This document shows, piece by piece, positions 460 through 63,086 of a DNA stretch of 64,000 nucleotides. This DNA comes from Isoetes taiwanensis (Eukaryota > Streptophyta > Lycopodiopsida > Isoetales > Isoetaceae), in contig JAJEKV010000063.1 of the NCBI GenBank assembly GCA_021234155.1, forward strand, positions 6,447,710 to 6,511,709, in the 5' to 3' direction. Both the position numbers and the translations under genes were made by a program. Positions within the stretch are counted from its first letter, which is position 1. Every line of letters starts with the position of its first letter. Under the pieces are notes generated by a model. That model did not search any database and had not been told where the DNA came from. It worked only from the letters and a program-made list of their open reading frames with translations.

Positions 460-1647
460 CTATGCACTCCTGTCTCTTCTCCTTGGGCATGGCCTGCAAG
501 AAGGATCGCACTGCTTTGGAGTAGTTTGACCCTTCCTGCTTATCTTTAAAGGACACCTGCTTCTTCTCCTGCTGCTTCCCCTGATTGCTACTATATGGGG
601 CTCTAGCTGGTCCTGGGCTGGCTGTCCTCGGGCTAAAACTGCCTGTTGCCTTGCCTTTGTCCCGATATCTCTGCTGCCTCGCCTCGCTTCTAGAGGTCCC
701 GTTCCTTGCAAGCTTATTGCCTTGGACTCCGCTTCTGATACTGTTCTAGGGTTTATTGCCCTTACAAGCTTGCGGATCTCCTCATTCAGACCTTCAATGT
801 AGCTTTCTACTGCATGCTTCTCACCTAACTTTGGCACATACAGCCTCAGCCTCATGAACTCCTCTGTATATTTCTGCACTGACTTGTTGCCTTGCTGCAA
901 CCTGTAGAACTGCTGCATCATGCTGGACTTGTGCTCTCTTGGAACGTAATGGCGCTTGAAGGCTTTAGCAAACTTCCTGAACCTGCAAGCATCCCTGCTT
1001 AAGCCATGAGCTTTGGCATAACCCTTCCACCAAATGCGTGCTGCTCCTTTCAGGTTTGCAGTTGCTACCCTGCCTTTATCCTTATCCTTCATACCATAAG
1101 CGTTGCCATATTCACTCATCTCGTCAAGCCAAGCTTCCGCCTCCATGCCTGACCTATTCTCGCCTGAGAATTGCTCGAGCTTCCTGGCCTTCCAAACATT
1201 TCCCAATGCAGAGTCCACTTTCTTCTGGTAGTCAGAGGTTCTTGTGTCCCTTTGTCGTCCGTCCGGAGTGTTCCTCTGCCTTCCATCTGTTCGGTCTTGG
1301 TTCTGCTCTTCTTCTTCCTCGGAATCGGAGTCTGAATCTGGGCTTGAGTCGGAGGAGTCCGAACTGGGGGACCTTCCTCTCTTGCCCCTCTTCTTGTCTC
1401 TTCCTGTTCTCCGAGCTGACGCTTGCGGCAGTTGAGCGTTACCCACCGAACCTGCTCCTGCTTGTGCGGCTAGCAAAGCCTTTATCTGCTCAAGGTCCGT
1501 CCTCATTTGCGATATTTCTTCTTCTGGGGTCATTTGTCCAAATTCTTCAAGCAGGTTCCTTGCCGGGCGTGGCCTGGGCGGACTCTGTTCTTCCATAAGT
1601 TCTCGCAGTTGACGTTCTCCTGCGTTTAGGCTTCTAGCTGCATACAC
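460..1647 (-). CDS. gag polyprotein with Retrotrans_gag capsid domain (copy A)
   Basis: A 395-codon open frame. Gag builds the cytoplasmic virus-like particle that packages element RNA. The N-terminal third is Pro/Arg-rich, then a Ser/Asp/Glu-rich stretch (residues about 95-125). Residues about 160-300 match the plant Retrotrans_gag capsid domain: AWLDEMSEYG, AARIWWKGYAKAHG, the Phe/Tyr-rich FKRHYVP block, QKYTEEFMRLR and YIEGLNEEIRKLV. The frame opens with GTG, not ATG; the first in-frame ATG is at 1596. A plant-like branch site and AG lie exactly at the opening (1638-1672), so the N terminus may be supplied by splicing. Downstream (about 400-460) a CCHC zinc knuckle has decayed: Cys and GH are visible but cysteines are lost. 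The C-terminal ~60 residues look frameshifted. Copy B has a more damaged version at 55740-57150. Confidence 0.88.
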   Translation of the reverse strand: MYAARSLNAGERQLRELMEEQSPPRPRPARNLLEEFGQMTPEEEISQMRTDLEQIKALLAAQAGAGSVGNAQLPQASARRTGRDKKRGKRGRSPSSDSSDSSPDSDSDSEEEEEQNQDRTDGRQRNTPDGRQRDTRTSDYQKKVDSALGNVWKARKLEQFSGENRSGMEAEAWLDEMSEYGNAYGMKDKDKGRVATANLKGAARIWWKGYAKAHGLSRDACRFRKFAKAFKRHYVPREHKSSMMQQFYRLQQGNKSVQKYTEEFMRLRLYVPKLGEKHAVESYIEGLNEEIRKLVRAINPRTVSEAESKAISLQGTGPLEARRGSRDIGTKARQQAVLARGQPAQDQLEPHIVAIRGSSRRRSRCPLKISRKGQTTPKQCDPSCRPCPRRRDRSA

Positions 1648-1806: not shown

Positions 1807-3363
1807 CTAATCATTCTTGCTTTGCCGCGCAGAAGATGGGTTATCCTCTAGGAACTTTTTCACTTGGGCTGTTCCCCCATTTGAATGGCCCAAGTTCCTA
1901 AGACGACATTGGCTGAAGATCCCCCAGAAAAGCTCTGCCAAGTCTTCTATTCTCGCGGTCGGAGGTATAAGTCGCCGTCACCGCCAGCCTTGCTGCCGCA
2001 GTAAGGTATGGCGGTCGAAGACGCCGAAAAGCTACCGCTCTCTTCACCGTAATGGCATACTCGGTGTTGAGGGGCAACCGCCAAGCATGCCGCCACCAAT
2101 CCCGAGAGTGCAATCATCATCGATACTCCTTCCTCGCCTCGGGGGTGAACTTGCGGTGAATTACCGCTAATCTACCATCCATCGCCAGGGGGGAGGTAAT
2201 AACGCAAATGACACGTGCGTTGCGGGACAGTCCTCGCCACTTTCGGATCCAGCTGCGTAATGCGCCGCAAAGTCATCAACCTCCACCGTGGTGAGCTCCC
2301 CAGTAGTCTCTCGACCAAGGTGAAGCCCTCCTTAGGGTCGAATCGCCTCTTCTCTTGGGGAGGTGTTGTCAAGAGCTTGCCGTTAGGATGTTCGAGGTCG
2401 CATAACGGATCCCCATCCGTTCTCAGTAGGGGCAAGGAACTCTTCCTCCGGCTCGGTAGTAGATTTGCGCCCCGGTCCGCTCCATAATCTGCGATGTTGT
2501 TTGAGGGCTTGATGCTCTGAGGTCGACTCTCCCGTAAGTGTCGGCTTCTCTTACTTGGAGTGGGAAGTCGATGCTCCTCGGATGATGAAGTCGCCCAGTC
2601 CGCTTCTTCTGGAGTTGGTGCAGCAACTCTTCAGGTCTGTACTCCCTTTCCCTGCACTCCGGGAGGTTTTGGATGTCGCTTAGGAGCAGAAACTCCTCGC
2701 CTTCGACAATAATGGGAGCTAGGCTTGTGATGCCTAACCCAAGGGGTGGCGTGACTCTGAGAGTTTGCCGGCTTCTTTCGAAGTCTTGCCACTCCTGCTC
2801 TGCTTGTCGCCGCTCCTCCGCTGGGTCGAGCTCGACATAGTCTTCCTCTTCTTCTGATTCCTGTTCATCCGAGTCTTCTTCCTTCCCTTCCTGCTCCTGT
2901 TCATACTGTGTGAGGAGCCGTTGTTCTGCTGCTATGGCTAATGGGTCTACGTCCATGGGGGGAATGGAGGTTTCCCCCACGGTGTTCTCGGCACGGTGGG
3001 TGAGAAAGATTGCCAAGGCAGTGTTGAAAGAGAAATACTTGGTCCTATTGACAGTTAGGACCATTGGCTCAGGTGTGCGCTGCGCTTTGTTTGTTAGGTA
3101 TTTGGCGATGTTCGAACGTCGCCTAATGTTTCTGCGTGGACCTGCCTAGGGACAAAGTAGCCTACACAAGGGGGGGAGCTGTACTTAGCTGGTTCTACCC
3201 TAGCTTGGAACTCGAGACAAGACTCTATTGTAAAGCCGGGTTATGCGTGCAAGGTTGCACCGACATCTACCTCCTTCCTGAAGATATGGAAGATTTGGTC
3301 GACGTCGGCCTCGGCAGCATGAGCGCTGGCGCTGTACCATCTGCGAAAGTCAGAGGTTGCCAT
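1807..3363 (-). pseudogene. accessory ORF2, unknown function, broken (copy A)
   Basis: The second accessory gene, between the H3-like ORF1 and gag. A plausible start is the ATG at 3363, 114 nt downstream of a TATA box; it begins MATSDFRRWYSA and soon meets a frame break. The longest clean piece is 2423-3064: a Glu/Asp-rich segment (EQESEEEEDYVELD), then LLLSDIQNLPECRERE and FPLQVREADTYG, both also in copy B. The distal part down to the stop at 1807-1809 is split over frames, but its end (GTAQVKKFLEDNPS) again matches copy B. The full gene would be roughly 520 codons. I recognise no domain and no catalytic motif; the acidic N-terminal third is a general feature of histone-binding proteins, which is suggestive only. 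Several indels make it inactive here. Confidence 0.65.
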
Positions 3364-3674: not shown

Positions 3675-3741
3675 GTCTCACAGCTTGCGCCTCGCTCCAA
3701 AACTAACTTTTAGTTCTTTGACCAGGCGCGAGCTGTGAGAC
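3675..3741. repeat. 67 bp palindrome, TATA-proximal, upstream of ORF2 (copy A)
   Basis: Outer arms GTCTCACAGCTTGCGCCT and AGGCGCGAGCTGTGAGAC pair at 17 of 18 positions; the centre has its own small palindrome (AACTAA...TTAGTT type). Same length and outer ends as the palindromes of copy B, but different arm sequence, with pairing kept. Confidence 0.8.
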
Positions 3742-4077: not shown

Positions 4078-5329
4078 CTAAGGGCGTTCTCCCTTTATGC
4101 GGGTCGCAAGACTCATGTCTTGTCGCATTAGGGTTACCCGCTTGGCGTGGACAGTGCAGGCTGTTGAATCTTCAAAATGTTGCACTATCTTTGCCTCGGC
4201 CGCTTCTTGCATTGCTAGCAGCGCCTCGTCCGTGACCCTGAAGTCTGTCCTGTAGGCCTGCATTACTTCTCGCACTAACCGAGCAAAAGGGGCACGGGGG
4301 ATTAGAAGTCCGTAGCTGCGCTGGAAGTGCCTAATCTCCCTCAGCGCTCTCCTCTCCACCTCCTTCCTGTCTACCTTCTTCTTGGGTGGTGGCTTGGGGA
4401 CCTTGGGCTTCGGTGGTGGCGGCTTCAAGGTCTGCTGCTTTGTCGGCCGCCCTCCCTCGATGATCCTGACCCTGTTTTCTTCATAGTACTTGCTGTAGGC
4501 TTCCCATTTCTTCATATAAGCCTCGTGCTCCCTCATCTTTCTTTCGTATATCTTTACCCTGTCGGTGACGTAAGCTTCACGGGCAGGTCGTGGCTGCTTC
4601 TTTCTATCCCATGCCGGGTACTCAGGGGGTTTCTGCACTTGGTCTTGCTGGGGTTGCTCAGGTGCTGGCTGGTCAGGCACTACCTGTTCGTCGTCCGGGT
4701 GCTTAGAAGAGCTTCCACCTGCAGCATTAGGGTTGAAGTCCCCATCAGAAGAGTCGTCGGAGGAGTTCGGAGGTTCGTCGGCTTGCCGCTCCTTGATGAC
4801 GATCTTGGGGTTAGGCCTCTTCCTCGGCGGCGATCCTTGACTTCCTTGTGCTATCCACGAACTTCCCCTTCGCCTTCTTTTTCTCTTCTGCTGCTTTCTG
4901 TTCCTCTTCCTCCCTTTTCCTCTTTTTGTTTTCCTTCCTCTTCTCCCGACGTTCATATTTCCTAATGAACCTTCTAAGGTCTGCTTCCTCTGCTGGCTCC
5001 AGACCTGTCACCTGCTCTTCCTGCTCGAGGATCTCCGTGGCTGCTTCAGAATGGTCTTCTGCTCTTTCCTGTTCCCGGATCTCCCGCTCTATTTCCTCAT
5101 ATACCTCCCTTGTCTCCTCGTCCATGGAGGTTGGTGATGTTGCCTCGTCCTGTTCCACCTGCTGGTTGAAGACGTCGATCAGATCGGACGTGTCCTGCTC
5201 TTCGTCCGAAGGCGAACGACCCCCTTTCGCGAGCCTCTCGCGAAGCATCTGTCGAATGATCTCAGCCTCCGTGGCGCTGGTGGTTTCGCCTGGGCGACGC
5301 TTCCTGGCGGTCTGTTTGGTTCGGGCCAT
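4078..5329 (-). pseudogene. ORF1: histone H3-like protein, one frameshift (copy A)
   Basis: Starts at ATG 5329 with [15 protein letters not shown], the exact canonical H3 tail through Lys9, then departs. The first frame runs to 4811 and is acidic and coiled-coil-like; a single indel around 4830-4860 moves the reading into the frame that ends at the TAG at 4078-4080. The second part has an Asp/Ser stretch, a conserved block (REAYV, EHEAYMKKWEAY, RVRIIEGG), a proline/lysine run, and a complete H3 fold encoded by 4347-4081: [59 protein letters not shown]. The fold is ungapped against canonical H3 and differs from copy B at 12 of 89 residues by my count. Total span matches copy B within two bases. 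Role: presumably a nucleosomal H3 variant or a decoy for H3-binding factors; inference only. Confidence 0.88.
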
Positions 5330-5431: not shown

Positions 5432-5441
5432 CTATTTATAG
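5432..5441 (-). promoter_or_regulatory. TATA box of ORF1 (copy A)
   Basis: CTATAAATAG on the minus strand, 103 nt upstream of the ORF1 ATG, the same box at the same distance as in copy B. It lies in the internal region, more than 500 bp downstream of the LTR, so it is separate from the LTR promoter. Confidence 0.68.
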
Positions 5442-13390: not shown

Positions 13391-13458
13391 AGCTCTATAT
13401 TGATCAATAGGTGCGAACATCCAGGCATCTTTTGGGTCTAATGTGTAGGGCTCATAAA

Positions 13459-14638: not shown

Positions 14639-14666
14639 GCCCGGCAACGCCGGGCACTATAACTAG
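14639..14666 (+). mobile_element. Helitron 3' terminus
   Basis: GCCCGGC-AAC-GCCGGGC forms a perfect 7 bp stem (14639-14655), then ACTATAA and CTAG (14663-14666), followed by host T. This is the Helitron hairpin plus CTRR signature. A partial duplicate of the stem sequence lies just upstream (14601-14620). The related end at 25011-25014 has the same AAC loop with paired changes in the stem. Confidence 0.75.
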
Positions 14667-14826
14667 TTATTGTAAAAGCGAGAGATTGTATCAAAAGAGC
14701 TAAACTTTCTCAACCATGATCAATCAATTTATTATCACGCCATTTGAGGGACCCTCAGGTCCATATGGCAAAACAGTACAATGGTTTTTTTTGGGCAAAA
14801 AAATGAATAAAGAACTCTGTGAAAAA

Positions 14827-47572: not shown

Positions 47573-50500
47573 GCAAAAAATTACATTGTTTTTTCTTGTT
47601 GTTCGTATTTCTCTGCAATTCGATGTATTTTTATTATCATGTAACAATTTAGAGTTCACTAATTTTTTTCAGTACTATATCCCAAAAATTGAGAATTTAG
47701 AAAAGGTCTCTGCCATTGGATTTGCTATTTTCTTCAATTGTTAGAATTATGTGGGTTGATCCACCATCAATTTCTTGGGTTTGTTTTGCCATATGGCAGA
47801 GTTGTTACATGTGGAGGATAAGAAGGATTAAAGATACAAGCTGTGCTGGAAATAAAACTTCAATGCAAGATTATTGGTTGCAATGAATTAGATGGATCCA
47901 GGTTTCTTATTGCATCGATATAACGTAGCCTATTTCTTTAGTTGGTTATGTTATTTCAAGCAACTTCCTACAAGGTTCTTTGATCTCCAAAAAAGCGGTG
48001 CTCTTATCGACAAAACAATGGTAGCCGTTTGCGGCAATATCCGGATGAAAACTAAATCTGATGCATGTCAGAATGGCATACAATATTGCTTTGTAAAGGC
48101 CACTTCCAAAAATGGGTCTCGGAGCTTGTTGCTCTAGCTATGTTATGGGAAACCTTATGTCTAGCCTTCAACGTGGTAAGCGGAGTCATATATGAACCCA
48201 AACAAGCTAGCATGTGTTCCTGAGAGTGTTTCCTAGCCTTGAAGGTGGGAATCCTGCTTTGATATTCGGTATTCTTTCACTGCAGGGTGTTGTTTTTCTT
48301 TTGATCTTCCATCATTTCTTGAAGATTTGCCCTAAAAGCATCTCTTTTTTGCCTTTCTCTACAGGCTTGGGAGGATAGGGTGGAGATAGAGAAATTACAC
48401 TCATGAAGCTTATTTTGGCTTGATTGTCACCTCACTGTGACATTGATACTTGCATTAAGACATGAGCTGAAAGTTGCGTAGTGCTTAGACTCAAAAGACT
48501 AGCAATAGACCATGTGCGATCAAAATACAATTAAAGGTCACCTAAAGTGACATTTTTGTTACGTGAAACCATTTACATTATATTCTGTGGGCAGAATGTT
48601 GAGTAAATGTGTAGAATGTTGAATAAATGTCTAGAAATATTGAGTGCAAAATCTACTAAACATTCTTTAAAAGAATCATTGTCACGTGTCAACACATGAT
48701 TAGACTAGGGGGCAGGATGTCATATAAGTGGTTTTTACGTAATATATATGATACGAAGCTAAAGTTTAGCACCTACACTGAAGAAAGAAAATTCGCGTTA
48801 TAGTACGCATGTTTATAGTACACATGGAGCGATGTTGGGAGAACTTGGGGTTAGAGCTTGTAATTTACTTATTGGTGTTCACTTGATATTAGTTAAACAT
48901 TAGATTAAGTTTGTCCTTGTTTGTTTATGGTTGTAATTGATATCAAAAGTCCATGTTTCCTTTTTTATTCATAGTTGCATTTGATAGTAAAAGTCAAACT
49001 CAATTGAATATCGTGTTATCTGAGTTGGACTGCCTAATTCAAGGTATGCATATAGTGGACCATGCATATTTCTTATGAGAAATTAAAGTTGATTATTATA
49101 TATTATTAAAGTTGAGCAAAGTTTTTAAAATATTGCTGAAGAACTAAAATGGTTTCAATTGCAGTAGTTAGAAGGAATACAAATATATAGTATACAGAAC
49201 CACTAAGGATTATTGGAGTCATTTGTTCAATGGCATTGGATAAGCCCTTAGAGATATATACTTTTAAAAGTTTGCTATCACCAGGAATCAAGTCACCAGG
49301 AACAACAAACTCACAACATCTGAATACATTAAAAAAACATTTCGCATCAAGTAGCATTTTGCACTTCTGAACTTCTATAATAACAATGTAACATTTCCCT
49401 TCATGTTACTCTTTTGCTTCTCTACGTGGACGTTAAAATTTCCTTCCTTCCTTCCTTCTACAATAGGAATAGTGTTCTGACCGCCAATGTACCTTGAAGG
49501 CACACATGCAACAAAAGTGTAGCACACGATCTATCAACATGTTACCTGCAAGAATGCACGGAGGACAAGTCAGAAAGGATAAACTTCGCTTCATTACCAC
49601 ATGTAGCATTTGGATTTTGAAAAATACTATTCAATTCCAGAAAGAAGGGTCTATATAGCCTGCACATGTAATTCCTCCCTTTTCCAGGAGATTATTATTA
49701 TACTCACCATAGAATTGTTAGATCTCCAACTGGCATCTAGCGGCTTATCTTCTGACATACAGTAGCATCACTGGCTGCTACAAAATTGAAATGTAAAACT
49801 GTCACTTAGGCATCAAAAACTCACCGTATCCTCCATGTGAGAAAATTATGGAACAACCAGATTAAAAAAGAATCAAAATCAAAAAAATTTATGGCAAGAA
49901 ATAAATGAGAGTAGTTAAATAAGTTCACCACAAGAACAATGTGCAAATTCAATTTAAGGACGAATTACCATGGTGTCATTGCGAAGCTACAAGTGCTACT
50001 CAAGTACTGCGTTCAGTCGAGATCAAGATTGTTAAGAAGTTAGATTTTAAGAGTGAAAATAAGAACCATGCTCCATCAACCAATCCTCTACTAGAAGCCC
50101 AACAAACCATGTAGCAGCTGGCCTACAATACATTGCCTGGTCTATTTGGGGGGAATCTGTGCCTAGCTCCTGTCTGTACTTGCAAAGTATAATGTAAGAA
50201 AAAGACTAACCATAGGACTCAAAAGATACAAAAATCCTTACAGGTTAAATCGGTCCTCATATGTAATGAGATTGACAGTCCAAACCTGCCAGACTACTCT
50301 ACCTGGAAGAAAAGTCAAGTTATCACCCTGAGAAGAGTTATGACAGCATAAGTTAAGTAAACCTATGAAGATAGGTCTCTAAATTTTTAGTGATATCAAA
50401 ATTAATACCCATATTGCCAGCTTGGATATCAATTCCACAAGTAAATAAATCTAGGCCAAAAATCCAACTATTAAGAAAAGAAACAAAAGTCCTCTCAATA

Positions 50501-50744
50501 TGTAACTCCTCCCATACCTAAGGGCACAACGTTTTGACAAGCTCCAATTCTGAAGTTATGGAACACCCTGTTACAGTGTAATTATAGCATTTTCACAGAG
50601 GCAGTATTCCTCAATGCAGATTTTACAAGCCTAGAAATGCGATCCATTTGGCTTGAGATGGGGGGTAAGGGTGATGAAGCTTCCTCGAAGGAGGGGGGCA
50701 AATCGTCAATAGGAGACCAGCTAAACTGCACTCCATGCAGCTAG
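47573..50744. other. intergenic, no gene seen
   Basis: AT-rich, short frames only. A TTCC microsatellite is at 49441-49458. Ends at the LTR start; the last five bases GCTAG (50740-50744) would be half of a target duplication, but the other side is lost. Confidence 0.5.
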
Positions 50745-52415
50745 TGTGACGTTCCAGGACAGTATACGGTCTCAGGACGTATATTGTACTGCCTCGTCAC
50801 GTGTACACGCCACCCCGACTGACGTGTACGCCAACGTGTAGCTAGGCTAGTAGCCCTAGGGGGCAACGTGCAAGGAGTGTGCATTTATTAATGTGCACAT
50901 TAAACAATGTGCACATTCACTTAGGTGCACATTTTCCCATATGGCCACTTCATGCCAAGTGGGCCACACCCATAGGTGCAATTAATGTGCACATTCTCCA
51001 ATGTACACATTAATGTGGGCACACATTTCCATGTGGGCACATTTTGCCACCTATCCATTAAAGGCAAGTGGGCCCATTCCCAATTATCCCACATGCCTAA
51101 AGGGGATAATTGGAAACCCTAGCCAACCCCTTGTCTATTAAGGGAGGGAAACCCTAACTTGCCCAATTTTCGTTTCTAGGGTTTTAGAACTCTGTTTTGG
51201 CTGCCTCAACAGCCAAAACCGCCTCCCAGACTCTGCCTGAGAGAACTGTATCCTTAGTTTCTCTTGATTCGAGCGTTTCAGCAGGATGGTCGAGCTCAGG
51301 TCAGGAGGAGTCCCTCAAGGATCAGGTATTTAGGCAATTAAATAGCTTAAACCCTCTTTTAGCCATCGAATCAGTAGGTTTAGCCTCTTAAATTGCCCAT
51401 AGCAGCCCTCTAGATCTCTAGATAGCAGATTCTAACTAAAGAACCTAACTCTATGATGTAGATTAGATCTAGTTCTTTAGTTCTCTGTGAAGTATATGGA
51501 TGATGTATCTCTATGAACTCCTTGTATTGGGAAGGGGGGTAGAGACCTAAAGCTTTGTAGTTGATGCTCCTAGAGTAGCCTCTCTAGCACACTTGTAGAT
51601 TCTCGCCCAGGTACAAGAACCACACCGGTTGTGGGTGAAGGGGCCAGAGGCGGGCCGAGAAGGAGATTCATGTCCCGACTCTTGAACGATCCCTCGGTGT
51701 GTAAGGCCTACCGGGGATCATTGTGACTAGGTCTAATGGCTCACCACCGTCTTGGGGTGAGGCATGGATTGACACCCAGGTGAAGTGGTGTACACTTTCC
51801 GGTGGGTTCGGTCGACTACGGGCGGGGCCCTCTAGTCACCTTGAGTCGACATGTAGATCTCTGGAGGGGAGTGATCCCTTCCTGCCCCATTGGGCCGGGA
51901 GGATGAAACCGGGGAATAGCCCTTACGGCTATGCATCCGTGGGCTTCTGATCAGTCCCGACACTTTTCAGCCTACTCGCAAAGTGTGCAATGGAGGGCGG
52001 ATGGAGTGGACAACCCTATGCCATGTTCATACGCCCGGACCAAATCCATTGCCATGAATTACATGCGCAATGAACTCACGGGAGACCCAAGCCGTCGGGT
52101 TCTCCCTTTGAGTCCGAGCCTTGGGTAGGATTTCCCATATGTAGCGTGCTGATCATTGTCTATGCAGATGTTGATGGACCACCCTTCGAGGTGGATATGT
52201 GCTTATGTTATATACTGACATGTATGTTTACACTTCCGCAGCTAGGTAGGCCCTGAGGGAGACGGGGTAAAATGACCCCTTCACTCTTCCCACTGAAACC
52301 AGTCAGGGTTGCAGTGTTATGTGGAGGGCCCTGTATCGGCATGGAGCTGGTATGGGGGATGAACTCTGTTTTGTATCACGGTGAGTGCAATCAGATGCGA
52401 GTAGGGGACGTCACA
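50745..52415 (+). repeat. 5' LTR of copy B (1671 bp)
   Basis: TGTGACGTTCC...GGGGACGTCACA, directly followed by the primer site. Terminal inverted words GTGACG...CGTCAC enclose a CAGTATACG/CGTATACTG-type inverted repeat in the first 55 bp (one change in this LTR, perfect at 61438-61492). The U3 at 50880-51045 holds at least five copies of GTGCACAT or near variants. Confidence 0.95.
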
Positions 52416-52416
52416 G

Positions 52417-52428
52417 TGGTATCAGAGC
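52417..52428 (+). other. primer-binding site, initiator Met-tRNA (copy B)
   Basis: TGGTATCAGAGC, one base after the LTR end. Confidence 0.95.
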
Positions 52429-52629
52429 AATGTTCTTGGTGACCAAGAGCAAAGCACTGACCATGTTCCCAGTAGTACTAACTTGATAGGATCCTTAAAC
52501 CTCGAAAAATGGGAAAAATTTTTTCTCATTTTTGTAGTTTTGCTAAGCTAGTAACAGTTAAAATGAATGAAAACAAAAAAAAAAAAAATATATTAAGAAT
52601 TGATGAGCCAACCTTCCAAAAGTAGGGTG

Positions 52630-52696
52630 GTCTCACACGTCGCGCCAGGGCAGATTTTGAGATTCTCAAAATGGGGTCAAGGGCAACGCGTGAGAC
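52630..52696. repeat. 67 bp palindrome, distal, upstream of ORF1 (copy B)
   Basis: GTCTCACACGTCGCGCC ... GGGCAACGCGTGAGAC with inner ATTTTGAGATTCTCAAAAT. Starts 198 bp before the next palindrome. Confidence 0.88.
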
Positions 52697-52827
52697 ATTA
52701 AATAAACGCTTAAAAAGTCATAAATCACAGTAAAATAACTTGATAAATCTAAATTTAAGCTAAGAATCATTAGAATTAGCATGTTACATGTTTTAAAAGT
52801 ACAAAATTTAGTAGTGGGTCCCACCAT

Positions 52828-52894
52828 GTCTCACACGTCGCGCCAGGACAGATTTTGAGATTCTCAAAATCGGGCTGGGCGCAACGTGTGAGAC
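52828..52894. repeat. 67 bp palindrome, TATA-proximal, upstream of ORF1 (copy B)
   Basis: GTCTCACACGTCGCGCC ... GGGCGCAACGTGTGAGAC; inner GATTTTGAGATTCTCAAAATC. Nearly the whole 67 bp can fold. Confidence 0.92.
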
Positions 52895-52968
52895 CTTGCT
52901 TAATTAGGGGTTTTAGATGTTTTAGGCAACCCAAAAAGGTAGTTTAAAAGTTGACCTAAAATTGACCC

Positions 52969-52978
52969 CTATAAATAG
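52969..52978 (+). promoter_or_regulatory. TATA box of ORF1 (copy B)
   Basis: CTATAAATAG, 103 nt before the ORF1 ATG and more than 550 bp past the LTR. Same box and distance as in copy A. Confidence 0.7.
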
Positions 52979-53073
52979 ACCTAGACTCCTCCCATTTCCA
53001 CGTTCTATCCTTAGAAAAATTGCTCGTGTCCGCCAAGGCGATCTTCCGGCGCTTAGCTCCGATCGACGAATCA

Positions 53074-53079
53074 GTAAGT
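53074..53079 (+). promoter_or_regulatory. possible 5' splice donor next to the ORF1 ATG (copy B)
   Basis: TCA|GTAAGT immediately precedes the ATG at 53081. The partner would be the acceptor at 55737-55739. Unproven. Confidence 0.35.
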
Positions 53080-53080
53080 G

Positions 53081-54334
53081 ATGGCCCGCACGAAACAAAC
53101 TGCCAGAAAGCCTCGTCGAAGCGATTCATCCAGCGCCAGCGGCTCTGGCCTCTTTCAGAGAGTCCTTCAAGAACGCCTTTTCCGAGAAGGCGAATCTTCT
53201 TCGAGCGAAGATGCAGGATCGGATCGGAGCGACCACACGGAGATCATAGACGACGACCGACCAGACATCATGCATCAAATCCTCGAGGAGATCGCAGAGG
53301 AGGAGGGAAGGAGCAGGGAGCACAGGGAGCAGACAGGGCAGCCAATAGCCGAGGAGCAACACCAGACTGAGACCCACATGCAGGAGGAGCAAGGGAGAGA
53401 AGAGCAGCAGCCGCCGAAGCTCACCCCGGATGAGGAAGCCGATCTTGCACGCTTCATCAGCAAGTATGAAGCCAAAGAGCGCCGCCGGGAGCAGAGGACG
53501 AAGAGTCGGGAAGACGACCCGACCACAACCAGCGGGCCAAAGAAGAGAAAGGCCAAAGCCATCAAGGCAGGCGGCAGGAAACTTGTGAAGGTCGGGAAGC
53601 GAGCGGTAGGGCCCGTCATCAACGAACCATCAGGCGAAGAGACCCCGCCTTCCACCGACGATTCGGACGACGATTACGTCCCCAACCCGGAGGGGGCGAG
53701 CTCTTCAAAACCCCCGCCCGTGGAGAAGGAGGTACCCGAGCAGGTGGCACCTGAGGAAGATCAGTCCGGGCAGACACCGAAGCCCCCACCTTTTCCAACG
53801 TGGGATAGAGTTAAAGCCCCGCGACCACAACGGGAGGCCTACGTGATAGACCCGGTCAAGGTCTATCAGAAGAAGATCAAGGAGCACAACGCGTACATGG
53901 TGAAGTGGGAGGCATACAATGCCTACTATCAGGAGCACAGGGTAAGAACAATCGAAGGCGGACATCCGACAAGAAGTCAAACCTTGAAACCACCGCCACC
54001 CAGGCCCAAGCCTCCCCGAGCACCAGGGAAGAAGCGGAGCAAGAAGAAGAAGTTGGAGGACAGAGCTCTCAAGGAGATCCGCCACTTCCAGAAGAGTTAC
54101 GGACTCTTGATTCCCCGGGCGCCGTTCCAGCGCTTAGTCCGTGAAGTCATGCAGGAATACAACACGGACATGCGAGTAACCGACGAAATGTTGCTGTGCC
54201 TACAGGAGGCAGCAGAGGCAAAGATAGTGCAGCATTTTGAAGATTCAACGGCCTGCACAGTGCACGCGAAGAGGGTTACCCTCATGAGGCAGGATATGTA
54301 TCTTGCCAGGCACATCAAGGGAGAACGCCCTTGA
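53081..54334 (+). CDS. ORF1: histone H3-like protein with extended linker (intact)
   Basis: 417 residues from ATG 53081 (an in-frame GTG just before it is not needed). Residues 2-10 are ARTKQTARK, identical to canonical H3 through Lys9; residue 11 is Pro, so the ARKS context is lost. Residues ~12-240 are charged, Glu-rich then basic and Pro/Ser-rich, probably disordered. Residues ~245-307 form a block shared with copy A ([26 protein letters not shown]). Residues 329-417 (54065-54331) are a complete H3 fold, ungapped to H3: [46 protein letters not shown]; about 50/89 identical to H3. Residues equivalent to Arg83, Cys110, His113, Lys115, Arg116 and Asp123 remain; Lys79 and Lys122 do not. Likely nuclear. 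Could form nucleosomes or act as decoy for H3 binders. Not CENH3-like: loop 1 has no insertion. Confidence 0.93.
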
Positions 54335-54480
54335 AACCTTTTTGTAAATAATGAACATTTTTGTTAATATACAGAATTTTTGTGTAGATAAAGCGTCAAA
54401 TCTTGTTTAAATAAGTTAAGATATTGATTTCTAGCTTTTGTTTTAGTTAAATTTGGAGCTTTGAGCAAAATCGAGACGAT

Positions 54481-54547
54481 GTCTCACACGTCGCGCCAGG
54501 ACAGATTTTGAGATTCTCAAAACCGGGCTGGGCGCAACGTGTGAGAC
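54481..54547. repeat. 67 bp palindrome between ORF1 and ORF2 (copy B)
   Basis: Almost identical to 52828-52894 (differences only near the centre). By comparison with copy A it is the distal member of the ORF2 pair; its partner and the ORF2 TATA box are deleted here. Confidence 0.92.
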
Positions 54548-54653
54548 CATGCCCAAAAGTGCCCAAAACAACTCCAAATCGACCAAATAAGGGGTCAATT
54601 CTGCCTAACTCGACGAGTTTAGTGGAATTACAGCCTTAAATCACCCAAATTGA

Positions 54654-55557
54654 GTAAGCCTAGCCCCGATCATCATCAACGGAGAGGAATATTTACTCCT
54701 CAGCGACATCCAGAACCTTCCCGAGTGCAGGGAGAGGGAGCTCAGATTGGATGAACTACTCCACCAGCTACGGCAGTCAGACTTGGACGACTTCATCGTC
54801 CGGGGAGCCTCGGACTTTCCGCTCCAAGTGAGGGAAGCCGACACTTATACAGGAGAGTCGACTTCAGATATACAGGCCTACAGCAGTATCAGGCAAATGA
54901 TGGAGGAGCAAGAGCTGCCAACGGAGGAGGAGTTCCTCGCCCTCCAGGAACAGATGGGGATCCGTGGGAAGACCACGAGCATTTTAATGCCGAGGCCTTC
55001 GACACCACCTCCATCAAGAGGAGAAGGAATCGACCTCAGACGAATCGACACCATAATCGAAGACTACAGGGAGCTCACCGAGATAGGGGTCGACGAATAC
55101 GCGGGACGGCATAGAACAGGAGGCCAATCCAGCGGAGAAGCTTCAGCGACGCACAATGACAGGTCCCTGAGGTACTACCTGCCGCTGCTACTAGACGGGA
55201 GAATAGCGGTAATTCACCGCAAGTTTAGCCCCAGAGGTGAAGAAGGAGTGTTCATGCTGATTGCACTCTCGGGCTTCGGCAGGCATGCTCGCATAGCGCC
55301 AAATGTCGACTATGCTGTCCTGGTCAAGAGAGCAATGGCACTTGACCTCTTCGACTTCGCCATACCACATCGACGTCGGTAGCGAGGCTAAGGTTACCGC
55401 AGCCCTCACATCCGACCGCAGGGTAGAAGAGCTGGTGAGAGCCTTGCAGGGCGGCTCGTCAGCAAGCGTCATCAGGAACTTGGGTCATTCGGTAGGAACG
55501 GCCCAAGTTAAGAAGTTCCTCGACGACAACCCGTCTTACCGGCGATTTCAAGATTAG
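54654..55557 (+). pseudogene. accessory ORF2, 5'-deleted and frameshifted (copy B)
   Basis: Opens after a stop at about 54651 with SLAPIIINGEEYLLLSDIQN, equivalent to the middle of ORF2 in copy A, so the first third including the acidic region is gone. The first ATG is at 54747. It continues through FPLQVREADTYTG, LRYYLPLLLDGRIAVIH and FSPRGEEGVFMLIALSG to a frameshift near 55370, then HIDVGSEAKVTAALTSD and GTAQVKKFLDDNPSYRRFQD to the stop at 55555-55557. No known domain recognised. The C-terminal two thirds are mixed alpha/beta in composition. Conserved between copies, so once a real protein; role unknown. Confidence 0.65.
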
Positions 55558-55704
55558 TTAGACTCTTGACCCCGGAGACTTTTTGTACTAAAATATTATA
55601 TAATATATGAATATAATCTCTGTTGCACTTTAAATGTTTTGTTGATGTAATGTTGCCCCACAACTATACCAACAAACATAAACAATGCAAGAGAACAAGG
55701 AAAA

Positions 55705-55739
55705 CTAACCATATAGCCATGAATTACTTGTGTATGCAG
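55705..55739 (+). promoter_or_regulatory. candidate branch site and 3' splice acceptor before gag (copy B)
   Basis: CTAAC (55705-55709), then TGTATGCAG ending at 55739, where homology to gag begins. Same arrangement in copy A. Confidence 0.45.
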
Positions 55740-57150
55740 TTAGAGGCCTAGGCTCAGCGGAACGACAACGCCAAGACCTTAGGGAAGAACAGACCCGCCC
55801 GCACCACCCCGGCAAGGAACCTATTTGAAGATATGGAACCCATGACCCCGAGGAAGAGATATCCCGAGATGAGGACGGACCTTGAGCGGATAAAGGCTCA
55901 AGCCCGCACAAGCGAGGGGAGCCGGTTCTGTGGGCAATGCTCATCCGCCACAAGCATCAGCTCGAAAAACGAGGAAGGGACAAGAAGAGGAGCAAGAGAA
56001 GAAGATGCCCCAGCCGGACTCCTCCTCCGCTCAAGCTCGAGTCGGACTCAGACTCGGAAGGAAGAAGAAGATCGAGCCCGGGACCGAACAGGCCGCAAAG
56101 GCAAAGGAACATCAAGAGGGAAGGCGGAGGAACACCCCGATGGACGACAAAGAGACACGGGGCCTCGACTACCGAAGAAGGTAGATTCCGCGATTGGGCA
56201 ATGTATGGAAGGCCCGAAATCGAACAGTTCTGGGAGAACAGGTCAGGTTTAGAAGCAAAAAGCATGGCTTTGACGAAATGAGTGAGTACGGCAATGCGTA
56301 TGGCATGAAGGATAAAGACAAAGGAAGAGTGGCAACAGCCAACTTGAAAGGAGCCGCACGGATTTGGTGGAAGGGTTATGCAAAGGCACATGGCTTAAGC
56401 AGGGATGCTTGTAAGTTCAGAAAGTTTGCTAAAGCCTTCAAGCGCCATTACGTCCCGAGGAATATAAGTCTAGTATGATGCGTTAGCTCTACAGGTTGCA
56501 AAGAAGGCAACAAATCTGTCCCGTATATACTGAGAGGAATTCATGAGGTGAGGTCAGATATGTCTTAGAAATTGGGTGAGAAGCATGCAGTAGAAAGCTA
56601 TATTGAGGGGCTGAATGAGGAGATCCGCAAGCTTGTGAGGGCAATAAACCCTAAGACAGTATCAGAAGCAGAGTCCAAGGCTATAAGCTTGCAAGGGACG
56701 GGACCTCGTGAATAGCGCGCGAGGCAGCCCGGCATTTCCGGGACAAAAGCGCAATGACGGAAGCTATAGCCCCAGAGCAGCCTAAATCCGAGTCCGGGGA
56801 GAGCCCCATATGGTGGCAAACTGTGGGAAACAACAGAGAAGAAGCGGTGTCCTTCAAGGACAAGCGGGGAGGGGTCAAGCTACTCCAAAGCAAGACGATC
56901 CTTTTGCGGCGATGCCCAAGGAAAAGAGAGAGACAGAGTGCATAGAAAAGCAGCCTTTGCTTTCCGTGATGTTTCCAGCCAGGTCATAGGACAACGAACT
57001 GCCCCTACGTCATGAGTGCAAATAGCTTCATGAGTTGGGAGATTGGGACACTCGTCTGGACGACGACGGCCGAAGAAGCACGCGACTACATCTGTGGTGA
57101 GGTCATATCTTTGCCGCAATAGATACAGAGCAAGCGGCAGAGCCAAGATA
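55740..57150 (+). pseudogene. gag, decayed (copy B)
   Basis: Matches the gag of copy A across its length but is split by stops and frameshifts. The best piece, 56194-56478, gives DEMSEYGNAYGMKDKDKGRV and AARIWWKGYAKAHGLSRDAC from the capsid domain; EKHAVESYIEGLNEEIRKLV is visible near 56580-56640. The zinc knuckle region near 56960-57050 retains single Cys and His codons only. Cannot make capsid protein. Confidence 0.85.
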
Positions 57151-57159
57151 AAGTAATTT

Positions 57160-58364
57160 CCACAAAAAGAGGGAAGGCCAAGGCCAAGTCCTTCATAGTC
57201 TTGATAGACTCAGGAAGTAGCCATAACTTTGCATCCCCCAGAATGGTTCAAATGTTGAAGTTGAAACCACTAAAGTCAAAGCCAAGGCCTGTTGTCTTAG
57301 CAAGTGGTGCAGTAAGGCAGACGGCAGGCAAGAGAATTAACTTCGACATCGACTTGCCAGGAATTAAGATCCAGATGGGAGCAGAAGTAATGGGCATTGG
57401 CAAGTACGACCTGATCATAGGAATGGAGTACCTTGGACCAGCAGGGGCCATTATCGATTGTGGAAAGCGGAAGGTGACCTTCCCAACACCCGACGGCAAG
57501 ATCATTGAGATCACAGGTAAAGAAGTTGTTCCCATCATGCAGTGTATGTCTTCTAAGCGACTGTTCAAGTGCATCAAGAGCGAACAGGTGGCATACATCT
57601 TCAAGCTTGAGATTGACGAGCCTGAAACAGAGGAAAGCAAAGAAGACAGAGTGCTCAGCAAGTTGCCGAGGCAAATAGCTCAGCTGATCACGGAGTTCCA
57701 TGATCTCTTTCCAGATGAGATCAAGCAGCTTCCGCCGTATAGGGGAGTCGAGTGTGAGATAGCACTCGAAGCGGGAGCAAAGCCGACAAGCAAGGCTCCA
57801 TACAGAATGACGACGCAGGAGTTGACGGAGCTGAAGAAGCAATTGCAGGAGTTGCTCGACCTAGGTTTCATTAGACCTAGTGTCTCGCCATTTGGAGCGC
57901 CCATTCTCTTTGTAAAGAAGAAGGATGGCAGTTTAAGGATGTGCATAGACTATAGGCAGTTGAACAAGCACACCATTAAGAACAAGTATGCGCTCCCCAG
58001 ATCAGATGACTTGATGGATCAACTCCAAGGTGCAAAGGTCTTCTCCAAAATCGACTTAAGGTCAGGTTATCATCAGATCAGGATAAAGGAGGAGGATATC
58101 CATAAGACCGCCTTCAGAACGCGGTATGGGCATTATGAGTTCACGGTAATGCCTTTCGGCTTATCGAATGCCCCCGCGACGTTCATGAGGCTCATGAACG
58201 ACATCTTCAGGGAGTTTTTAGACACCTTTGTGATTGTATTCTTTGATGACATTTTGGTGTATAGCAGATCCCTTGAAGAGCACGTACAACACTTGAGGAG
58301 AGTGCTAGAGAAGTTGAAGAGGCACCAGTTGTACGCCAAGTTGTCGAAGTGTCACGTCATGTGA
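57160..58364 (+). pseudogene. pol: aspartic protease and reverse transcriptase (copy B)
   Basis: Open from before 57201 to the stop at 58362-58364. The protease active site is [11 protein letters not shown] motifs: [72 protein letters not shown], and the catalytic [12 protein letters not shown]. After LSKCHV a deletion of about ten codons removes the usual link to YLGHVIS and shifts the frame, ending the protein. Protease processes Gag-Pol; RT makes the cDNA. The catalytic residues seen here are intact, but the frame break uncouples RNase H and integrase. Confidence 0.93.
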
Positions 58365-59126
58365 TCTCAGCAGAAGGAATCTCGACGGATCCTGCCAAGA
58401 TCGAGGCCGTCATTCAGTGGCCGGCGCCGAAGAATGTGCATGAAGTCAGAAGTTTTCTAGGCCTAGCAGGGTACTACAGGAAGTTCGTGAAGAACTTCGC
58501 TAAGATAGCGGCCCCGTTAACAGACTTGACGAGGGCGGAAAAAGTGAAAGATTGGGCAGAGCATTGGCACAAGAAAGTCCAAGCAGGGTTTGAATTGTTG
58601 AAGGAAGCCTTAACAACCGCCCCAGTCTTAACCCTGCCGGAGCCGGAGAAAGATAAGCTTGTAGCCACAGATGCGAGTAAGATAGCTACAGGTGCAGTGC
58701 TCATGCAAGAAGAGCGGGTGGTAGCGTATGATTCCGGGAAGATGAACGACGCCCGAAACGCTACTACCCCACCCACGATCGAGGAATTGCTTAAGTTGTC
58801 GGGGCATTAAGAATTTGGAGGCACTATCTTTTGGGAAGGAAGTTCCAGGTTGGATCTGCACCATCGAGCCTCCAATGTATTCACGCAACCACACCTCAAC
58901 CCGAAAAGAAGAAGGATGGATGGAGTTCCTTGAAGAGTATGACTTTGATATAGTCTACAAGCCGGGGAAGCTCAATGTGGTAGCGGATGCACTTTCAAGG
59001 CATCCCCGACAACTAGAGTGCATTGCAATGCAATTTCGGCGCTCTCCAAATGACTTTGGTAAGAAGATTGAAGAGTCCTTGCTAACGATATATGGATTTC
59101 AAGGAAGTATGGGCAAGCCTCTCTAG
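58365..59126 (+). pseudogene. pol: RT thumb/connection and RNase H (copy B)
   Basis: Resumes in a new frame with [40 protein letters not shown] and [14 protein letters not shown], then RNase H starting [17 protein letters not shown] (first catalytic Asp) with [12 protein letters not shown], until a stop at 58808-58810. The rest (EYDFDIVYKPGKLNVVADALS, the last RNase H block with its Asp) follows in another frame to 59126. Two frame breaks. Confidence 0.9.
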
Positions 59127-60300
59127 GGAGGCTAGAACAGATAAGGAGCGGGAAGCCTTTAAACATTATAAGAAGGAAGGCAACCTGTTATACCATAAGA
59201 ACAAGTTGTGCGTGCAGAATCATCGTGTAAGGAAATTGATCCTCCACGACACGCTGCAACAGCCCAATAGCCGGCCATGCGGGATTCATGAAAACATATT
59301 TCAAAGTCTTGCAGGCAGCTATTATTGGCCGGGAATGAAGAAGCAAGTAGCTTCGCTACATCGAGAAATGCCAATTATGTCGTGACGGAGCGGAAGCGAC
59401 TTCAATTCGGGGAGCATTAGAGCCATTGGCGGTGCCAAACGCTAAGTGGGAGGTGATTAGCATGGATTTCATCACAGGACTCCCAAGGACCGTAAGAGGG
59501 AAAGATGCGTTGATGGTAGTAGTCGACAAGTTGTCGAAAATGGCACATTTTGTGCCTTGCAAGACCACAGATACAGCTATGGATACAGCGAAGCTCTTCA
59601 CCAAAGAGATTTTCAGGCTTCATGGCATGCCAAGGGAGATTATCTCCGACAGGGACCCGAAGTTCATGAGTGCCTTCTGGCAAGACCTCTTTACGACAAT
59701 TCAGACGAAGCTATCCATGAGCACGGCATATCATCCTCAGACGGATGGCCAAACGGAGCGGACCAACAGGATTTTAGAAGACATGCTACGAAACTATGTC
59801 TGGAATAAGCAAGGTATGTGGGAAGAATTTATTCACTTGGTGGAGTTTGCATACAATAGCACCAAGCAGGAATCATCCCAAATGTCGCCGTTTATGATTA
59901 ATTACGGCTATCAGTGCCTAACTCCAGACACTTGGCACAACCCCGTGTCAAAAGTGGAAGTTTCGCAGCAGATGTTGGCCGATATGCAGCAGCTTGTGGA
60001 AGAGGTTCGAGGGTATTTGTTTGGGCGGCAAGAAGTCGTCGGAAAGAGCATCGCGCCGACAAGCATCGAACAGTAAGGGAGTTCAAAGTTGGAGATGATG
60101 TTTGGCTCAAGATCAAGGTGAAGCAGGCGAAGCTCAGAATCGGGAATTGCAAAAAGCTTGCTCCAAGGTGGGCTGGACCTTTCAGAATAGTCAAGAGAGT
60201 AGGTAATCAATCCTACAAGCTAGACTTGCCAGCACACCTAAAGATTCATAAGGTCTTCCACGTGAGTTTGTTGAAGAAGCACACTCCAAATCCGCATTTA
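59092..60300 (+). pseudogene. pol: integrase, HHCC region, catalytic core and GPY module (copy B)
   Basis: 59092-59385 carries the N-terminal zinc region with SYYWPGMKKQVASL; its paired Cys are lost. 59426-60076 is an open catalytic core: SMDFITGLP (Asp), IISDRDPKFMSAFW (Asp) and QTDGQTERTNRILED (Glu), a complete D,D-35-E set. After a frame change at about 60050-60076 the GPF/Y module follows: FKVGDDVWLKIKVKQAKLRI, APRWAGPFRIVKRVGNQSYK, KVFHVSLLKKH. Integrase inserts the cDNA into chromatin. Confidence 0.92.
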
Positions 60301-60304
60301 AGTC

Positions 60305-60565
60305 TTGGACTCTCCAACGTTGTTGGAAATGACGGAGGAGCAGCTGGAAATAGTTCCGGAATTGATTCTTGATAAAGCTTTCAAGAAAACGAGGAGATCA
60401 GAATTCCTCCAGTATTTGGTCAAGTGGAAACACTTACCAGTGGAAGACGCGACATGGGTACTTAAGAAAGATTTGGTAAAGCAGTACCCACAGTTTATGG
60501 AGCAATGGGACGGCAAGGTCATCTCCGAAGAAATCGGCTCAGGCATGTCGATTTGTGTAGATTAA
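60305..60565 (+). pseudogene. pol: C-terminal chromodomain of integrase (copy B)
   Basis: Residues read VPELILDKAFKKTRRSEFLQ, YLVKWKHLPVEDATWVLKKD, LVKQYPQFMEQW: a typical chromodomain (beta strands with VKWK, ATW, then the C-terminal helix). Two of the usual aromatic cage positions (Trp of VKWK, Trp of ATW) are visible; the first (usually Tyr/Phe near the start) is not obvious, as in several plant chromoviruses. Chromodomains of this class direct integration by binding modified H3 tails. It ends at 60563-60565. A frame break separates it from the GPY module. The presence of an H3-like gene in the same element makes it of special interest. Confidence 0.92.
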
Positions 60566-61423
60566 TTCTATGTATAGTTTAGATTAATCTACGCATGCAA
60601 CCTATGCTAGGTATGGGTCGCATGCGTTGTGACCGATGATGAGACCACTACGGTGATCTCTAGGGCGTGGTGTAATGTCAATGTAGGCATGACCGCGTTT
60701 CCGCTTGGGCGAGTGGAAGGTAGACTAGAAAGTCTACTTCTGTCCCACAGAAGTAGACGACCTCGAGAGAAAGGAGGTCATGAAGGAATGCACTGATAGG
60801 AAAAGCACCTCTAGCCCCATATATGCTTTGATAGGAGGAATCAGGCCTTCACGCCCCATATACGGGAAGGACCTATCCTCCACGCTGGGCAACTAGGGTG
60901 TAGGCATGAGCGGCATATAGGCATATAGGCGCTGTCTCCACGGCCATAATGGAAGATTCACCCTCTTCCTACGCCGGGAGATTAGCCATGCATCCATGTA
61001 GATAGGTGGGGTGGTCACCATATAACCAAAATTTTATTAATAATTAAAATGGTACTAACGTAGTGTCGACCTGCAGGCCAATAGAGCGCTCCGGAGGGCA
61101 AGGAGGTCGAGCTACGAAGACTTGCAACACAAATTTTGTTGGAATGTGTTGCAAGGAATGAAGAGTACCTCGGACGTTAATTTTAAATTTGATAAACTTA
61201 ATTGTCATGTTAAGTGAATTATTGAGTAACCTGTTTTAATGATGTTATGAATTGATAAGCTATTTCATAATATAATGGCGTGATAATGTCCTAAAAATAT
61301 TACCTTAAGGTAATCTTAATAAATGTGTAAGTATTATAGTAGTTATAGCATGTATCAGGTTGATTGCAGGTTAGGATGATCCCAAGGTGGGGAGACCCAC
61401 GATGCTGCGGACAGCATCATTTC
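60566..61423 (+). other. 3' untranslated region of copy B
   Basis: No coding. Contains GCCCCATATA words at 60814 and 60862, and just before the PPT a short hairpin GATGCTG-CGGA-CAGCATC (61401-61418) flanked by two copies of AAGGTGGGGAGA (61384 and 61424). Confidence 0.6.
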
Positions 61424-61436
61424 AAGGTGGGGAGAA
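61424..61436 (+). other. polypurine tract (copy B)
   Basis: AAGGTGGGGAGAA immediately before the 3' LTR, the plus-strand primer. A second near copy is at 61384-61395. Confidence 0.85.
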
Positions 61437-63086
61437 TGTGACGTTCCAGGACAGTATACGGTCTCAGGACGTATACTGTACTGCCTCGTCACGCGTACAC
61501 GCCACCCCGACTGACGTGTACGCCAACGTGTAGCTAGGCTAGTAGCCCTAGGGGGCAACGTGCAAGGAGTGTGCATTTATTAATGTGCACATTAAACAAT
61601 GTGCACATTCACTTAGGTGCACATTTTCCCATATGGCCACTTCATGCCAAGTGGGCCACACCCATAGGTGCAATTAATGTGCACATTCTCCAATGTACAC
61701 ATTAATGTGGGCACATTTTGCCACCTATCCATTAAAGGCAAGTGGGCCCATTCCCAATTATCCCACATGCCTAAAGGGGATAATTGGAAACCCTAGCCAA
61801 CCCCTTGTCTATTAAGGGAGGGAAACCCTAACTTGCCCAATTTTCGTTTCTAGGGTTTTAGAACTGCTTTTTTTTGGCTGCCTCAACAACCAAAAACCGC
61901 CTCCCAGAACTCATGCTGAGAGAATCAGATCCTTAGTTTCTCTTGATTCGAGCGTTTCAGCAGGATGGTCGAGCTCAGGTCAGGAGGAGTCCCTCAAGGA
62001 TCAGGTATTTAGGCAATTAAATAGCTTAAACCCTCTTTTAGCCATCGAATCAGTAGGTTTAGCCTCTTAAATTGCCCATAGCAGCCCTCTAGATCTCTAG
62101 ATAGCAGATTCTAACTAAAGAACCTAACTCTATGATGTAGATTAGATCTAGTTCTTTAGTTCTCTCGTGAAAGTATATGGATGATGTATCTCTATGAACT
62201 CCTTGTATTGGGAAGGGGTAGAGACCTAAAGCTTTGTAGTTGATGCTCCTAGAGTAGCCTCTCTAGCACACTTTGTAGATTGCCTGTGTGCAAGAACCAC
62301 ACCGGGTTGTGGGTGAAGGGGCGAGACTGGCTGAGAAGGAGGTTCATGTCCTGACTCTTGAACGATCCCTCTGGTGTGTAAGGCCTACCAGGGATCATTG
62401 TGACTAGGTCTAATGGCTCACCACCGAAAGCGGGTGAGGCATGGATTCGACACCCGCAGGAAGAGGTGTACACTTTCCGATGGGGTTCACCGACTACTGC
62501 GGGCGGTGGCCCTCTAGTCACCTTGAGTCGGCATGTAGATCTGGGAGGGAGTGATCCCTTCCCGCCCCCATCGAACTGGGAGGATGAAACCCGGGAATAG
62601 CCCTTTCCGCTATGCATCCCGCCGGGCTCTGATCGAGTCCCGACACTTTTCAGCCTACTACGCAAAAGTGTGTGCAATGGGAGGGGGCGGATGGAGTGGA
62701 CAACCCTATGCCATGTTCATACGCCAGCCAAATCCATTGCCATGAATTCTGTCTGCAATGAACTCTGGAGACCCAAGCCGTCAGTTCTCCCTTTGAGTCT
62801 GAGCCTTGGGTAGGATTTCCCATATGTAGCGTGCTGATCATTGTCTATGCAGATGTTGATGGACCACCCTTCGAGGTGGATATGTGCTTATGTTATATAC
62901 TGACATGTATGTTTACGCTTCCGCAGCTAGGTAGGCCCTGAGGGAGACGGGGTAAAATGACCCCTTCACTCTTCCCACTGGAACCAGTCAGGGTTTGCAA
63001 TGTTATGTGGAGGGCCCTGTATCGGCATGGAGCTGGTATGGGGGATGAACTCCTGTTTGTATACGGTGAGTGCACCGTATGCGAGT
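61437..63086 (+). repeat. 3' LTR of copy B, lacking its last ~15 bp
   Basis: Same sequence as 50745-52400 with scattered substitutions and indels (for example one 18 bp GGGCACACATTTCCATGT-type unit lost near 61710). It runs to ATGCGAG at about 63085, then diverges from the expected GTAGGGGACGTCACA. Confidence 0.93.

Follow-up and report, generated by a model that had tools for sequence, protein, structure and literature searches.

The window, by which we mean the whole stretch of 64,000 nucleotides of Isoetes taiwanensis DNA that was analysed, holds an LTR retrotransposon on its plus strand with an H3-type histone gene (ORF1) near its 5' end. The features of this element are as follows.

50745..52415, plus strand: 5' LTR, TGTGACGT...ACGTCACA, 1671 bp (blastn self-match to 61437-63086)
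52417..52428, plus strand: primer binding site TGGTATCAGAGC, one base past the 5' LTR
52630..52698, plus strand: first copy of a 67-nt-type hairpin (RNA MFE -31.5, z -5.2)
52828..52894, plus strand: second copy of the 67-nt-type hairpin (RNA MFE -42.5, z -6.3)
52969..52978, plus strand: TATA box CTATAAATAG, about 110 bp upstream of the ORF1 ATG
53081..54334, plus strand: ORF1, H3-type histone gene (H3 tail start, charged linker of about 315 residues, H3 fold)
54062..54331, plus strand: H3 histone fold in ORF1, residues 328-417 (PF00125; H3.3 in the PDB; gap-free against host H3)
54481..54547, plus strand: third copy of the 67-nt-type hairpin, downstream of ORF1
54654..55379, plus strand: ORF2, an open frame (searched in Pfam up to E 1, without a match)
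56185..56475, plus strand: gag remnant (DNA similarity to the minus-strand gag ORF at 460-1596)
57123..58361, plus strand: protease and reverse transcriptase (RVP_2 2.2e-08, RVT_1 1.1e-37)
58277..58807, plus strand: RNase H (RT_RNaseH_2 1.6e-15)
59351..60369, plus strand: integrase core and C-terminal SH3 part, in two frames (rve 4.5e-10, SH3_Tf2-1 8.4e-23)
60302..60562, plus strand: chromodomain (PF00385 4e-11)
61424..61436, plus strand: purine-rich tract AAGGTGGGGAGAA ahead of the 3' LTR (sequence reading)
61437..63086, plus strand: 3' LTR, its final bases swapped for another related LTR fragment (blastn self-match)

The primer binding site is presumably of the tRNA-Met type. The two LTRs show a K2P divergence of 0.054 (1624 aligned sites). 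Abutting the shortened 3' LTR, one more related LTR fragment occupies 63088-64000. The pol region is split over several frames; ORF1 of the same element is open. Domains follow each other in the order ORF1, ORF2, gag, protease, reverse transcriptase, RNase H, integrase, SH3-like integrase end and chromodomain. Because reverse transcriptase precedes integrase and a chromodomain is present (looked at, after the integrase, in the plus-strand element of the window only), the element is a chromodomain-bearing Ty3/gypsy chromovirus. As far as the available text of two papers goes (PMC6317226, PMC3350952), it has the order of LTRs, primer binding site, gag, protease, reverse transcriptase, RNase H, integrase and C-terminal chromodomain in common with plant Ty3/gypsy chromoviruses. 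It differs from them in its additions: a histone gene placed upstream, ORF2, and an internal region that resembles a promoter.

ORF1 encodes 417 amino acids, from an ATG at 53081 to a stop codon at 54332-54334, with zero internal stops. The first 10 residues are the start of the H3 tail (ARTKQTARK). An acidic, lysine- and arginine-rich linker separates the tail from the fold, and a highly basic stretch precedes the latter. Checked against histone families, the C-terminus is H3-type: the Pfam Histone model (PF00125, which spans all core histones) matches residues 299-413 at E 3.6e-27, with 95.5 bits against a curated cut-off of 26.4, and in a PDB search H3 chains rank best, a solved H3.3 being found at 3.4e-28. 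Pfam matches on the protein begin no earlier than residue 299. An AlphaFold prediction reaches a mean pLDDT of 57.4, a quality insufficient for fold search. The initial annotation, made from the letters, had claimed an open frame between 5' LTR and gag with an exact H3 tail, which is what is found, and had estimated about 50 of 89 identities by hand for a gap-free H3 fold; the count against the canonical H3 of the host is 52 of 88 from residue 328, with zero gaps. Of the residues it had listed, C110, H113, K115, R116 and D123 are indeed retained, and this copy has R83 as well. Its placing of the frame upstream of gag also holds, with the correction that ORF2 intervenes between the two.

ORF2 is longer in several other copies (about 529 amino acids). 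Querying the genome of the species itself with ORF2 yields 11,217 first-look candidates, 150 of which were scored. When the search starts from ORF2, the end of an H3 fold lies upstream in five of the six loci fetched, that of the window included; in the sixth it did not show up.

A second histone copy had been reported at 4078-5329. It lies on the opposite strand, among the following features.

4078..5329, minus strand: histone ORF1 of family B, split into two frames that overlap (tail half at 5329-4811, fold half at 4956-4078; Histone 2.1e-28)
5432..5441, minus strand: TATA box of this ORF1
3675..3741, minus strand: hairpin, family-B version with compensatory changes
2423..3064, minus strand: ORF2 of this element
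460..1596, minus strand: gag ORF of this element (Retrotrans_gag 5.1e-18)

This element runs from 7558 down to the window edge in the order LTR, histone ORF, ORF2, gag, and its pol lies beyond the window. The second copy thus does sit at the equivalent place of an independent element, but its histone ORF is frameshifted into two overlapping frames and is not a single intact ORF.

Copies of the gene are abundant. The genome searched comprises 1,658,258,908 bases in 1110 contigs. Querying it with the ORF1 protein gives 13,857 first-look candidates, and all 100 that were scored match (own copy included); 57 of these matches span residues 1-417, and the non-self matches are 72-97% identical. With the minus-strand copy as query there are 15,400 first-look candidates (134 scored), and with canonical H3 there are 9,022 (150 scored, namely 15 host H3 genes and 135 other places). 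An H4 control query finds 69 first-look candidates, all of them scored, with 43 matches of which 16 are full length. First-look counts are counts of candidates, and the scored lists contain hundreds of places. Given 69 candidates for H4 against 9,022 to 15,400 for H3, H3-type sequences are amplified out of proportion to H4. Since 99 other places in the genome score as matches to the ORF1 query, the frame is not a chance one, and it is found at many loci rather than at the two of the window only. The claim that a gypsy retrotransposon gene encodes an H3 fold and tail is supported and extends to a fixed position across many independent elements.

Three trivial origins of such a gene can be set aside. 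An assembly artefact is ruled out by scored copies on many contigs with 67-97% identity. That an LTR element landed in a host gene and split it is ruled out by the similar distance between ORF1 and the primer binding site in independent insertions. A canonical host H3 misread as an element gene is ruled out as well: hits to host H3, 15 in number and 96-98% identical to the query, stand apart as a group of their own, and the 12 of them that were fetched have neither primer binding site nor hairpins in their 1.5-kb flanks.

The copies fall into at least four diverged families, sampled at 20 (A), 12 (B), 10 (C) and 3 (D) loci. Families A (the plus-strand element of the window) and B (the minus-strand element) have tail, linker and fold. 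Families C and D, reached with canonical H3 and rice CENH3 as queries, have other N-termini before an H3 fold; their loci were hand-picked, the 10 of C from the 135 non-host places that canonical H3 retrieved and the 3 of D from the 150 places that rice CENH3 retrieved. A primer binding site (at most one mismatch) lies upstream of ORF1 in 18 of 20 A and 9 of 12 B loci; in family C seven of the ten loci have one upstream, and in family D all three. The tail start is found in 31 of the 32 A/B loci (exact in 27, near it in four) and was not found in one. Alignments seeking a hidden H3 tail ahead of the fold in C and D are no better than shuffles (142 to 1820 of 2000 shuffles as good, in 10 loci). 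Identity of the fold to host H3 is 75-78 of 88 positions (85-89%) in the 10 C and 3 D loci and 48-52 of 88 in the 32 A/B loci. At residue 77 host H3 has E, as do 7 of 10 C loci and all three D loci; the other three C loci have Q, and the other plant and animal H3s compared mostly have D.

Histone H3 and its variants have the gap-free fold, the H3 length of loop 1 and the tetramer residues in common with all this, and in A/B also the tail. The differences from them are the length of A/B (417 amino acids, with about 315 between tail and fold), the other N-termini of C and D, and the substitutions R63P, K122Q and F84V in A/B. Searched against 5.8 billion proteins, the parts ahead of the fold of family A and C proteins have no relatives at E <= 0.001; with the whole protein as query, canonical H3 swamped the results. 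The family-D proteins (L055-L057) are open frames of 485-515 amino acids with a canonical-looking H3 fold and a start of the form M-x-x-x-KQVYKR, and their N-terminal part looks coiled-coil-like by eye.

Low dN/dS ratios mark the protein as conserved. In family A (17 open ORFs among 20 loci) dN/dS is 0.031 for the tail, 0.162 for the linker and 0.036 for the fold, at dS of 0.36-0.54. The fold of family B has a dN/dS of 0.048 (3 open ORFs among 12 loci), and between A and B the tail differs by a dN of 0.006 at a dS of 1.07. For family C (7 open ORFs among 10 loci) the fold gives 0.043 at dS 1.29 and the N-terminal part 0.198; for family D (3 of 3 loci open) these values are 0.027 at dS 0.93 and 0.160. 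All these ratios come from a biased sample, as the loci stem from best-match lists and open frames only were used. The H3 gene might, once captured, ride along in the element and serve no function: plant LTR elements often have extra ORFs that are heterogeneous (314 groups in Ty3/gypsy) and of doubtful function, according to the available text of an 80-species survey (PMC6317226). Such a passenger would decay, however, and a fold dN/dS of 0.03-0.05 in four families at dS of 0.47-1.29, together with an upstream TATA box conserved in A/B, makes this explanation barely credible.

Particular residues do not vary at all. D106, C110, H113, R116, D123, L126, I130, R72, K115 and T118 are invariant in all 42 A/B/C copies and likewise in the three copies of family D; we take R72, K115 and T118 to be DNA contacts and the others to be H3-H3' tetramer contacts. 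R69, R83 and A127 are each altered in one of the 42 A/B/C copies. Because the tetramer and DNA-contact residues are invariant and dN/dS is low, a protein still functional as a histone, in partnership with host H4, is the best explanation. Counting against it are changes specific to A/B: R63P and K122Q in 32 of 32 loci, and F84 replaced by V in 31 of 32 and by I in one. K122 of H3 is a residue whose acetylation is known to loosen DNA at the dyad. Overall, we consider it probable (roughly 60%) that a lineage of chromoviruses captured an H3-type gene of the host and has retained it in working order as an accessory gene, the product of which would be an H3 variant that acts in nucleosomes and helps targeting or weakens silencing.

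The same conservation bears on two other roles. ORF1 might stay outside nucleosomes and act as a decoy; in nucleus or cytoplasm it would then sequester H3 chaperones, methyltransferases or methyl-lysine readers and so weaken the silencing of the element. Tail and fold are the most constrained parts of family A, as a decoy would have it, and several of the invariant H3-H3' contact residues presumably also serve chaperone binding. On the other hand, the fold of C and D is equally constrained though these families are without an N-terminal H3 tail, and a pure decoy would not need the DNA contacts R72, K115 and T118, which are invariant too. We regard this role as unlikely. Alternatively, ORF1 could compact the element cDNA in particles or at nuclear entry, in the manner of some histones of large DNA viruses, and the conserved DNA-contact and tetramer residues and the basic stretch ahead of the fold would suit that task. 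Other core-histone genes are nonetheless absent among the frames of the window elements that were run against Pfam, and the H4 search, with its 69 candidates and 16 full-length matches, therefore reveals no H4 family of comparable size. Packaging is quite unlikely.

To return to the preferred reading, in which the protein works as an H3 variant, it is the fold and not the tail that the four families have in common, and therefore the core function should be nucleosome or H3-H4 handling. Since C and D are without an N-terminal H3 tail, ideas based on the tail, such as supplying H3K4/K9 enzymes and readers with a substrate or titrating them, cannot describe the shared function and apply to A/B only.

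The A/B histone shows traits of both H3 and the centromeric variant CENH3. Trees of the fold place family C with H3 and host H3. They set A/B apart from these by a branch that has plant CENH3 on the same side as A/B, with support of 97/93 in one tree and 98/95 in another (long branches; three CENH3 rows provisional). A constraint grouping A, B and C gives p 0.031, in a test chosen after a first tree. The A/B histone may accordingly derive from CENH3 or mimic it, and direct elements to centromeric chromatin or perturb it. Against host H3, families A and B each have nine substitutions in common with rice CENH3 (Y54F, R63P, L65A, F78Y, Q85T, S87E, V89L, T107S, I124M; rice letters provisional), and a 47-residue piece of rice CENH3 (letters likewise provisional) finds its best hits in element frames, at 60-67%, several rows coinciding with A/B places. 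However, loop 1 has the length of H3, gap-free against H3 and one residue short of the provisional rice CENH3, so that the CENH3 insertion is missing. Positions in common with H3 against this rice CENH3 number 9 in A and 7 in B, the loop-1 gap included, and identity is about equal to host H3 (up to 59%) and to rice CENH3 (60-62%). Moreover, human CENP-A is placed on the H3 side in the 97/93 tree, long-branch attraction is possible, and the genome searches turned up no host CENH3 to compare with. Compared with plant CENH3, then, the A/B protein combines nine of the rice residues (provisional letters) with no loop-1 insertion, and it is encoded by a retrotransposon. A centromeric route seems unlikely to us. 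As to origin, both one capture followed by divergence and two captures are conceivable. A match without the loop gap (C1004) was considered as a candidate host CENH3 and turned out to be another decayed element.

The surroundings of ORF1 point to expression of its own in A and B. Of the 32 A/B loci examined an ATG was found in 31, and all 31 have CTATAAATAG (at most one mismatch) within 150 bp upstream, usually near -110. Between ORF1 and ORF2, 29 of the 32 loci have a second TATA box. In family C the motif occurs at -80 to -130 in none of the eight loci with a recognised start. Among 12 host H3 loci, 7 have a TATA box between -69 and -95, a comparison by position and not by homology. From this arrangement we infer that the A/B ORF1 is probably transcribed separately, from its own internal TATA promoter.

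The 67-nt hairpin typically occurs twice before ORF1, about 200 bp apart, and twice after it; 16 of 19 other family-A loci have two copies downstream of ORF1. Covariation between A and B scores 0.296 against 0.115 for shuffled sets (0 of 500 as high) with 94.8% of cells paired, in a set of 12 copies that are related to one another. Nine pairs are changed on both sides, a number that 51 of 500 shuffles reach. Rfam at its gathering threshold gives no match within 50000-64000.

How an element would profit from an H3 variant can be proposed in steps. The ORF1 protein, in A/B made separately by means of the internal TATA promoter, would pair with host H4 and be built into nucleosomes. Entry into nucleosomes, or competition for the chaperones and modifying enzymes of H3, had also been proposed in the initial annotation. 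Chromatin changed in this way, whether of the element or of the site it targets, might then ease integration (for example by tethering) or weaken silencing by the host. The A/B tail, ARTKQTARK, is methylatable and may in addition attract H3K4/K9 enzymes and readers. Our confidence is greatest for entry into nucleosomes, less for separate expression in A/B and least for an effect on integration or silencing. A handshake in which the integrase reads K9 methylation on ORF1 is doubtful, because aromatic residues are absent at two of the three cage positions of the window chromodomain (by eye, in comparison with HP1). Type II chromodomains are described in the accessible text of the survey as lacking the first and usually the last cage aromatic, their partner not being identified (PMC6317226). 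A fuller scenario combines these ideas: element H3 variants made from the internal promoter would enter host nucleosomes and mark chromatin for integration or for immunity to silencing, with the CENH3-like A/B variants aimed at, or competing for, centromeric chromatin. This combination is tentative, and as a whole we find it rather doubtful.

Histones in viruses are already known. The histone H4 of bracoviruses and the Marseillevirus-type histones are core histones in mobile or viral genomes, and bracovirus H4 has an extended tail and is reported to act on host chromatin. Those are H4 or fused histones in unrelated elements, whereas here a conserved H3 resides in an LTR retrotransposon. Transposons and their hosts contest chromatin, and retroelements are thought to read histone marks (through chromodomains), not to supply histones. 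A conserved and amplified element H3 would, if our reading is true, be a direct way to alter the chromatin in which an element has landed. Plant nuclei may in that case contain H3 variants of transposon origin, and the families would allow a natural test of which parts of H3 chaperone loading, silencing and targeting each depend on.

A chromovirus with a captured gene is in itself known; unusual is that the content is a histone H3. Ogre, Retand and Athila likewise have an extra gene outside gag-pol, but they are non-chromoviruses with unrelated domains, as described in the accessible part of the 80-species survey (PMC6317226). There the leading extra-ORF domains are the plant mobile domain, Transposase_28 and Athila ORF-1, and 'histone' occurs once in the main text available, as H3K9 ligand (PMC6317226). 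The word is absent from the main text, so far as available, of the genome papers on I. taiwanensis (PMC8566536) and I. sinensis (PMC10541799), the latter of which reports Gypsy expansion in Isoetes. Among the titles and abstract openings listed in a literature search, with preprints and most subscription journals outside its range, none reports a histone-encoding retrotransposon.

Elsewhere in the window, class 3 lipase pieces at 34260-36530 (minus strand) and a GH5 cellulase-like ORF at 40750-41628 (plus strand) are likely host genes or fragments thereof. Other reverse transcriptase fragments lie at 14827-16260 (minus strand) and 42960-43445 (plus strand).
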